Positions 49,434-51,616 of a DNA stretch of 51,616 nt are shown here, in pieces. The stretch lies in contig DVEF01000038.1 in NCBI GenBank assembly GCA_015295805.1, forward strand, positions 1-51,616. Direction: 5' to 3'. The stretch's first letter is position 1. Each line of letters starts with the position of its first letter. Under the pieces are notes generated by a model. It saw only the letters and a list, made by a program, of their open reading frames with translations, was not told where the DNA came from and made no database searches. Position numbers and translations under genes: made by a program. Source of the DNA: Geminocystis sp. M7585_C2015_104. GTDB taxonomy: Bacteria; Cyanobacteriota; Cyanobacteriia; Cyanobacteriales; Cyanobacteriaceae.

Positions 49434-50603
49434 ATGAAACCTATTACTATATTAGGTTCTACCGGTTCTATTGGCACTCAAACTTTAGACATTGTAAGAA
49501 ACTACCCCTCAAAATTCAGGGTAGTAGGATTAGCGGCTGGTAATAATGTTAGCCTGTTAGCGGAACAGATAAAAGAGTTTAAACCAGAAATAGTAGCTAT
49601 TCGCAATCCTGAGAAATTATGGGAGTTGAAAGAAGCAATTGCCGGGGTATCACCACAACCCATACTGTTGGCTGGGAAGGCAGCCATTGAGGAGGTGGCC
49701 GCCTATGGGGATGCGGAAACAGTGGTAACCGGGATTGTGGGTTGTGCGGGATTACTGCCTACCATTGCCGCCATCAAAGCCAAGAAGGATATCGCCCTGG
49801 CTAACAAGGAAACCCTGATTGCCGGAGCCCCAGTTGTGCTACCATTGGTTAGAGAGCATGGGGTAAAATTACTGCCCGCAGATTCCGAACACTCTGCCAT
49901 TTTCCAATGCTTACAAGGTGTGCCCCCTGGAGGATTAAAAAGGATAATTCTGACTGCATCGGGGGGTGCCTTTCGTGATTTGCCAGTGGAGGCACTCAGG
50001 CATGTTACCGTAGCCGATGCCTTAAAACACCCTAACTGGTCCATGGGACAAAAAATCACCATCGATTCTGCTACTCTGATGAATAAGGGATTGGAGGTTA
50101 TCGAGGCCCACTTTTTGTTTTCCCTAGACTACGACCATATTGATATTCTAATCCATCCCCAGAGTATTGTTCATTCTTTAATCGAATTACAAGATACTTC
50201 CGTATTAGCACAACTGGGATGGGCGGATATGCGTCTACCACTGTTGTATGCGTTATCATACCCTAAAAGAATAGCCACCGATTGGAAGCCCCTAGACTTA
50301 GTGGCGGTTGGAAGTCTTACCTTTCGTGCACCCGATCATCAGAAGTATCCATGTATGAAATTAGCATACGCAGCAGGAAGGGCGGGAGGGTGTATGCCGG
50401 CTGTGTTGAATGCGGCAAATGAGGAGGCGGTAGCATTGTTTTTGCGGGAAAGGATAGGTTTTTTAGATATCCCCCGGCTAATAGAGGAAGCCTGTGAAAA
50501 TTTCGTTGGGCAGAATAAGTCCAATCCTAGTCTAGAAGAAATTTTGTGGGCCGACCGGTGGGCAAGAAGATTTGTAGAACAGCAGGTTTCTGTTTCTGCC
50601 TAA
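49434..50603 (+). CDS. dxr: 1-deoxy-D-xylulose 5-phosphate reductoisomerase
   Basis: The second and committed step of the MEP pathway to isoprenoids, making MEP from DXP with NADPH and a divalent metal. It is 389 residues, of normal length. The NADPH-binding loop is [16 protein letters not shown]. Active-site regions are [37 protein letters not shown], the flap [10 protein letters not shown], and [13 protein letters not shown]. The supply of isoprenoids links it to carotenoid and quinone production. It is followed at 50608-50638 by a stable hairpin and then the SucD-like gene on the same strand. Confidence 0.97.
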
Positions 50604-50657: not shown

Positions 50658-51551
50658 ATGACATGGGATTTTTCGCCTCAATTTCTCATCCAGGGAATAG
50701 AGCGGGATTGTGCTAGATTCTACCTACAAGACTATTATGAGAATCGGACCCAGGTGGTAGCTGGTGTCGCCGATGGGGGTTATAATGGGGGGAACATAGA
50801 GGGAATACCCGTTTTCGACCTAGTAACAGAGGCCCTAGCCAGTCATCCCGAGATTGTGACTAGTATTATTTGCAGTCATCCCTATCGGGTGTTGGATGCC
50901 ACCAGAGAAGCCATTGAAAGTGGTATAAGTCAGATTGTCATTCACTCAGAAGGGATACCTCCCTTAGACTTGCTGAAGATATATCAGACGGGAGAGAAAA
51001 GGGGTGTAAGGATAGTAGGTGTTTCTGGGGGAGGGATTTTAATACCTGGTTGTTTTTATTGTGGCATGAATTATGCTAGTTTCTTTTCTAAAGGCAATGT
51101 TGCTATAATAAACTACTGTGAGCAAATAGTTGCTGCTGAGATTGCCTACTGTTTGAGGGAGGCTGGGTTGGGGGTGTCCCTGGCAGTTAGTTTTGGGGAG
51201 GGGGGGTTAGCCTTTGAGAATTCCCATATTTGGTTTGAATGGTGTGAGGCTCATAAGGACACCCATTTAGTTATTGTAAGTATAAAAGGGTTAGTGGGAG
51301 AACAAGTAAAACAATTAGCCACCTTACTGCAGAAAACCAACAAGCCTAAGATAGTTTATTGTTTTGATGTCAGAGGAGTACAACAGAGACTACAATACAA
51401 GAATAAAGGGAAAGTGGTTTGCGATCAGATAGAATTGCATCTTCATCTCCAAAACTCCTGGCAATCTATAATTGAGGAGTTAAGGGATGAGAGGACTGTG
51501 ATTGTTGACAATCTGCTTGTTATCCCACAATTGTGTAAAAGAGGGTTATAA
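50658..51551 (+). CDS. Divergent SucD-like (succinyl-CoA ligase alpha subunit) protein, likely non-catalytic
   Basis: A protein of about 297 residues. It aligns along its length with cyanobacterial SucD: FLIQGI at the start, VVAGVADGGYN, PVFDLV, SHPYRVLDATREAIESGISQ, IVIHSEGIPPLD and GNVAIINYCEQIVAAEIAYC. Key functional features are missing. The CoA-loop glycines (GFTGSQG in SucD) read GIERDCA, the GPNCPG motif reads GVSGGG, and the catalytic-histidine motif (GHAGAI) near the C-terminus is absent. I start at ATG 50658 (MTWDFSPQF), which matches the SucD N-terminus; an in-frame ATG at 50613 lies inside a hairpin. No sucC is present nearby. A CoA-binding or regulatory role is possible; the true role is unknown. 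Confidence 0.7.
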   Translation: MTWDFSPQFLIQGIERDCARFYLQDYYENRTQVVAGVADGGYNGGNIEGIPVFDLVTEALASHPEIVTSIICSHPYRVLDATREAIESGISQIVIHSEGIPPLDLLKIYQTGEKRGVRIVGVSGGGILIPGCFYCGMNYASFFSKGNVAIINYCEQIVAAEIAYCLREAGLGVSLAVSFGEGGLAFENSHIWFEWCEAHKDTHLVIVSIKGLVGEQVKQLATLLQKTNKPKIVYCFDVRGVQQRLQYKNKGKVVCDQIELHLHLQNSWQSIIEELRDERTVIVDNLLVIPQLCKRGL

Positions 51552-51558
51552 TAGCCTT

Positions 51559-51584
51559 CCCTCGGTTTATGGTTATACCGGGGG
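51559..51584 (+). terminator. Hairpin after the SucD-like gene
   Basis: CCCTCGGT (51559-51566) pairs with ACCGGGGG (51577-51584), 8 bp with one G-T wobble. No T-run follows. It lies eight bases after the stop. The remaining 32 bases to the window end hold no identifiable gene. Confidence 0.45.
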
Positions 51585-51616
51585 GGTTGACGACATGCCC
51601 AGTGTGTAGGATGATG

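Follow-up and report, generated by a model that had tools for sequence, protein, structure and literature searches.

A retained cyanobacterial SucC–SucD pair lacking the phosphohistidine of succinyl-CoA synthetase probably does another job

The window, the whole 51,616-nt stretch of contig DVEF01000038.1 of Geminocystis sp. M7585_C2015_104, carried near its end a sucD-like gene whose product kept the fold of the succinyl-CoA synthetase (SCS) alpha subunit and had lost its catalytic motifs. With moderate confidence, this gene is interpreted as one half of a retained SucC–SucD pair in which the phosphohistidine relay was lost and which took on a new role, most likely that of a regulatory complex that binds nucleotide (and perhaps acyl-CoA). 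The textbook "succinyl-CoA synthetase" of these cyanobacteria therefore probably does another job. The features of the window were as follows.

49434–50603, + strand: dxr (DXP reductoisomerase), 54 nt upstream of sucD; a neighbour only, with a functional part unproven.
50658–51551, + strand: sucD-like gene with the SCS alpha fold and lost catalytic motifs (ATG at 50658, stop at 51551, 297 residues, beginning 54 nt past the dxr stop; profile and PDB matches, alignment, AlphaFold2 model).
50694–50717, + strand: place of the CoA loop, GFTGSQGT in E. coli and GIERDCAR here (alignment, residues 13–20 counted).
51018–51035, + strand: place of GPNCPG, here GVSGGG (alignment, residues 121–126 counted).
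51288–51290, + strand: place of the phosphohistidine-supporting Glu, E209 in E. coli (Met1 counted) and Gly211 here (alignment).
51402–51404, + strand: place of the phosphohistidine, H247 in E. coli (Met1 counted) and Asn249 here, in a low-confidence stretch of the model (alignment, model).

In the alignment with E. coli SucD, the phosphohistidine, GPNCPG and the glycines of the CoA loop were all gone, as the earlier note on this DNA had claimed. The supporting Glu and the SGTLTYE motif, which that note had not listed, were also lost, the latter being replaced by CEQIVAAE. In addition, GKGG (containing K43) was changed to GYNG, GEIGG to KGLVG, and KRMGHAGA to RLQYKNKGK. The relationship to SCS alpha was far beyond chance in a sequence search against PDB entry 2yv2 (E 3.4e-28). 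The match to TIGR01019 (E 1.4e-25, 90.3 bits) did not reach the curated NCBIfam cut-off of 353.2, and the Pfam scan returned two CoA-binding families alone, CoA_binding at 42.7 bits and one under its cut-off. The AlphaFold2 model had a mean pLDDT of 83.5 and matched the SCS alpha structure 2yv1 with a Z score of 28.6 and an r.m.s.d. of 2.3 over 265 aligned residues, which represented the full-length fold. Model confidence was lowest in the former phosphohistidine stretch, where pLDDT fell below 50 at residues 247–253 and 255–262. The length and several sequence blocks of SCS alpha were retained, as first described, and common descent was indicated by the tree.

The earlier note had called the protein a paralogue. 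The frame was instead the sole, single-copy SucD of its genome, in which the only other match was weak (E 1.4e-4). This second match (L036:3-1586) read in sequence as a fused protein of the ADP-forming acetyl-CoA ligase type, its frame cut by the contig end. The absence of an adjacent sucC held for the upstream side; downstream, the contig stopped 65 nt past the sucD stop (51552–51616). A SucC-like protein of 377 residues was, however, encoded on another contig of the genome (C65), unlinked to sucD, so the implication that the protein has no partner did not stand, all the more as sucC and sucD co-occurred throughout the phylum. ATP-grasp_2 was matched in this SucC at 114–116 bits, and its ATP-grasp residues were intact, whereas the C-terminal half was eroded. 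Ligase_CoA gave no match to this SucC in the Pfam scan (113.9 bits for E. coli SucC), which indicates that the partner is itself divergent.

Among 386 sampled genomes of the phylum, a SucD match was found in 143 and none in 243, and a SucC match was found in 149. Both proteins were present in 141 genomes. SucD occurred alone in two (G029, 86% complete; G038, 73% complete) and SucC alone in eight, with one strong match (G237) and seven weak ones (E 1.5e-9 to 6.0e-6); six of the weak matches among those listed lay in frames of 737–950 residues. No internal stop was found in any of the 143 SucD matches. SucC stood just upstream of sucD at 68 of the 80 named loci, some of the others stopping at contig ends. 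At 135 of 171 SucD-like loci it was no more than 1.5 kb away and in the same orientation; this set counts some places more than once and takes in fused relatives as well as the locus of E. coli. After sucC, the commonest neighbour was an opposite-strand gene upstream of sucC–sucD, seen at 20 of the 80 named loci (e.g. L054:3185-5020).

SucD sequences were taken from 65 of the 143 matched genomes (the 30 best matches and 35 hand-picked for spread) and from 80 named contigs retained from 120, some places being present in both sets. Merging of identical rows (149 to 141) left a motif table of 141 distinct SucDs including that of E. coli. The histidine was kept in 49 of 131 distinct cyanobacterial SucDs and absent from 82, which is not a population frequency since the sample favours relatives of the window. 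In these 82 sequences its place was taken by Asp (41), Asn (19), Gln (13), Glu (4), Pro (2), and Gly, Arg or a gap (one each). GPNCPG, SGTLTYE, GEIGG, KRMGHAGA and the CoA-loop glycines were all kept in E. coli SucD and in nine SucDs from other classes of the phylum, the hosts of which are presumably non-photosynthetic. The histidine was absent from all five genomes examined of a Synechocystis-like genus and from all six of a second genus, Picosynechococcus or a close relative, both names being inferred. Judged from these sequences, the loss is not local to the window lineage and is shared by many other cyanobacteria.

For the SucD tree and the counts of conserved columns, rows more than 85% identical were thinned separately in the histidine-bearing and histidine-less groups (131 to 84), ten outgroup rows were added, and the histidine region was taken out of the resulting 94 rows. 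The 84 non-outgroup rows formed one side of a branch with a support of 100. At least seven changes of the histidine were needed on this tree, five of them forced by starred branches. The stem branches of the window lineage carried about 1.1 changes per column, compared with a median of 0.29 for the end branches. K43 and the CoA-loop residue G18 were kept in just 3% of 29 non-redundant histidine-bearing cyanobacterial SucDs. A change in CoA binding may therefore have preceded the loss of the histidine, and the idea that the protein senses CoA is weakened accordingly.

The SucC sequences of histidine-less lineages (locus L171 was excluded from the residue and identity counts) differed sharply between their two halves. 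K46, E99, E107 and N199 were present in 75 of 75 sequences, R54 and G58 in 71, and G53 in 56. D213, which we take to be a Mg ligand, was kept in 62 and replaced by Asn in 13. The mean pairwise identities of the ATP-grasp and C-terminal halves were 63% and 27%, respectively, compared with 72% and 39% in histidine-bearing lineages and with 41% and 48% in the phylogenetically broader outgroup. G290 was found in 29 of the 32 tree rows that bear the histidine, the outgroup among them, and in 9 of the 49 that do not. The raw association of residue loss between SucD and SucC was strong, although the independent-pairs tests had just four or five usable pairs, too few for significance. This pattern suggests that selection mostly kept the nucleotide site and released the phosphohistidine site. 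The 13 SucCs with Asn at D213 belonged to one Nostocales lineage (L017, L022, L053, L113 and nine other loci); the CLDGK of E. coli read ALNGK or similar in them, and the adjacent SucDs were histidine-less and on short branches. Even the ATP-grasp site may thus be altered in this lineage. In three genomes of one genus, SucC had been flagged with a TAA stop; this stop sits just before the start codon, and the gene is unbroken in those genomes.

Other ATP-grasp ligases phosphorylate their acceptors directly. The pair could accordingly be a working ligase with new chemistry, in which SucC would use its ATP-grasp site to phosphorylate a carboxylate or some other acceptor, with no histidine relay. 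We consider this unlikely. The invariant K46, E99, E107 and N199 place the ATP-grasp residues as the best-kept part of the pair, as such a ligase would have them, but the Asn at D213 in 13 of 75 SucCs, all from the one Nostocales lineage with SucDs on short branches, argues against it, and no conserved substrate pocket was identified in the pair.

The selection on sucD was estimated against the nearest relative, the metagenome-assembled genome SRBZ.bins.94. The dN/dS of sucD was 0.173 (0.19 with other ends), compared with 0.027 for dxr and 0.12–0.15 for three other neighbours; one further window gene tried as a control had no counterpart in the SRBZ.bins.94 locus. The window sucD was thus relaxed relative to dxr and modestly so beside the three neighbours. 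In the same pair, sucC gave 0.083 in the ATP-grasp half and 0.186 in the C-terminal half. Across the family, the median dN/dS of SucD was 0.118 for the histidine-less pairs (n = 13) and 0.093 for the histidine-bearing ones (n = 11); all pairs had 70–95% identity and a dS of 0.2–1.5, and each row was used once. Among 55 non-redundant histidine-less SucDs, 40 columns were at least 90% conserved; the window SucD kept 37 of these, including P102, W192 and Q92, at which the outgroup has other residues. The window SucD is therefore constrained and somewhat relaxed in its own lineage, and the claim that its open frame is held by selection was borne out, both here and by the purifying selection in the histidine-less pairs. 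A pseudogene was ruled out by the open frames and by dN/dS well below 1.

A slower form of decay was also weighed, in which the pair is a relic: cyanobacteria would lack 2-oxoglutarate dehydrogenase, SCS would be dispensable, and its genes would be drifting out. The several independent losses of the histidine on the tree, the missing SucD match in 243 of 386 genomes and the faster evolution of the window family, with a dN/dS of sucD above that of dxr, are what a relic would leave. However, dN/dS values far below 1, the near-perfect co-occurrence of SucC and SucD, the 40 conserved columns, the lack of internal stops in 143 SucDs and the position of the three flagged SucC stops before the start codon are difficult to reconcile with drift. 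The phenotype of a Synechococcus 7002 deletion, described in part in PMC5160925, also argues against it, and this reading is regarded as rather improbable.

The pertinent part of that report describes a sucCD deletion strain of Synechococcus 7002 that could not be grown when sparged with 2% CO2 as the other strains were; its succinate and malate stood at about 60% of the wild-type level in the light and 40% in the dark (PMC5160925). Its authors read the lowered pools as support for SCS activity (PMC5160925), and such activity in Synechococcus 7002 is possible. SucC and SucD were detected in Synechocystis proteomes (PMC9175036), and a review of Synechocystis metabolism, in the text available, refers to the two as the (probable) SCS of cyanobacteria (PMC7133116). 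The links to strains 7002 and 6803 run through presumed genus-level relatives of those strains in our sample.

The lower succinate and malate of the 7002 mutant would fit a working SCS as well. The pair could then still be SCS, with the phosphoryl group taken by Asp, Asn or another residue; Asp was the commonest replacement (41 of 82), which makes another phosphoryl acceptor thinkable. Against this, Asn, Gln, Glu, Pro, Gly and Arg were also found at the histidine place, E209, GPNCPG and the SucC loops were mostly lost along with the histidine, and the corresponding loop of the window SucD departed from the consensus and was modelled with low confidence. A retained SCS reaction is therefore considered very unlikely.

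The gene neighbourhood of the window had led the earlier note to a link with isoprenoid supply. Dxr stood directly upstream of sucD in five of seven genomes of the window's family (G000, G151, G109, G119 and G056). It was not found in the sequence fetched around sucD from G187, from Geminocystis GBBB08 or from G145, for which this covered about 1.5 kb to either side, and was absent from the vicinity of sucD at every fetched locus outside the family. The adjacency is thus local to part of one family, provides no evidence for an isoprenoid role, and was rejected as a general rule. At two Synechocystis-like loci (L129:1401-4796 and L130:1320-4718; two of five genomes), sucD was located between an FMN_dh-family gene and one resembling a nucleotidyltransferase, and sucC was at another place in the genome. 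The upstream gene of L129 was matched by the Pfam family FMN_dh, and in both loci it may be read as a type-2 IDI. In Synechocystis 6803, sll1556 is assigned K01823 and sll1557 is sucD, according to the portion of PMC8385029 that bears on it, a numbering that fits this IDI–sucD order. A nucleotidyltransferase-like gene was also observed 3' of sucD in L158, from a genome of the window's family. The difference in gene order between the dxr and the IDI-2-like loci looks like the result of separate relocations. A new role in isoprenoid supply tied to dxr, for which the five of seven family genomes and the IDI-2-like gene at two loci would speak, is highly improbable given no dxr at fetched loci outside the family and sucC as the usual neighbour (68 of 80).

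With the motifs lost and the frame under selection, a new job, plausibly sensing or the binding of a partner, is the best reading, as the earlier note had proposed apart from the isoprenoid connection. In the repurposed regulatory complex, a single-copy SucC–SucD pair would have been inherited by photosynthetic cyanobacteria, the window gene being one version of it. SucD in the window lineage and in many others has lost both the phosphohistidine and the motifs around it. The part of SucC that would stabilise the phosphohistidine, its C-terminal half, has eroded alongside, while the ATP-grasp half has stayed strongly conserved. Building on the observed loss, retention, co-occurrence, fold and purifying selection, we infer that SucC and SucD may still form a complex, in which SucC would still bind Mg-ATP/ADP and could not hand phosphate to SucD. 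With no phosphate passed to SucD, the classical relay would neither make nor use succinyl-CoA. The complex would then serve as a regulatory or scaffolding pseudoenzyme, for which Pat/PatZ and FdrA/AllF are precedents.

If the phosphohistidine relay does not operate in many cyanobacterial pairs, how these organisms obtain and spend succinyl-CoA becomes an open question, and flux models that carry the SCS reaction there would be wrong. The phenotype of the 7002 deletion at 2% CO2 sparging, as far as PMC5160925 describes it, points to a testable function. More tentatively, and as a proposal that may well prove too broad, the SucC–SucD pair of much of photosynthetic cyanobacteria might have no SCS activity and act instead as a pseudo-synthetase that responds to ATP/ADP and adjusts carbon metabolism as CO2 changes; the TCA maps of those species would then have to drop SCS.

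Dead domains of the SCS type are already known. In the accessible part of the open-licence literature, which is weak evidence of absence, no mention of the missing histidine of cyanobacterial SucD was found, nor was its repeated loss with retention of the protein found in print. According to the relevant section of PMC8556138, the NDP-forming acyl-CoA synthetase domain of Pat/PatZ is inactive without the catalytic histidine and is taken as an acetyl-CoA sensor. The window SucD likewise lacked this histidine; however, Pat carries a GNAT domain fused in one chain, whereas the pair studied here consisted of two separate genes and SucD had no GNAT domain (297 residues, Pfam). FdrA/AllF of E. coli, a protein of 555 residues, belongs to the SucD superfamily with SCS activity not detected, in the part of PMC8550087 that treats it, and is a component of an oxamic transcarbamylase with AllG and AllH (PMC11326118, in the text available). 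The FdrA model was matched by 37 of 45 family members scanned, with a best E of 5.8e-13, and the window SucD was not listed under it in the same scan. Compared with SCS alpha itself (TIGR01019; 2yv1, 2yv2 and 1jkj), the window SucD differed in the absence of the phosphohistidine, the supporting Glu, GPNCPG and the CoA-loop glycines, scoring 90 against 353 bits, whereas the full-length fold, common descent and a SucC-like partner were shared.
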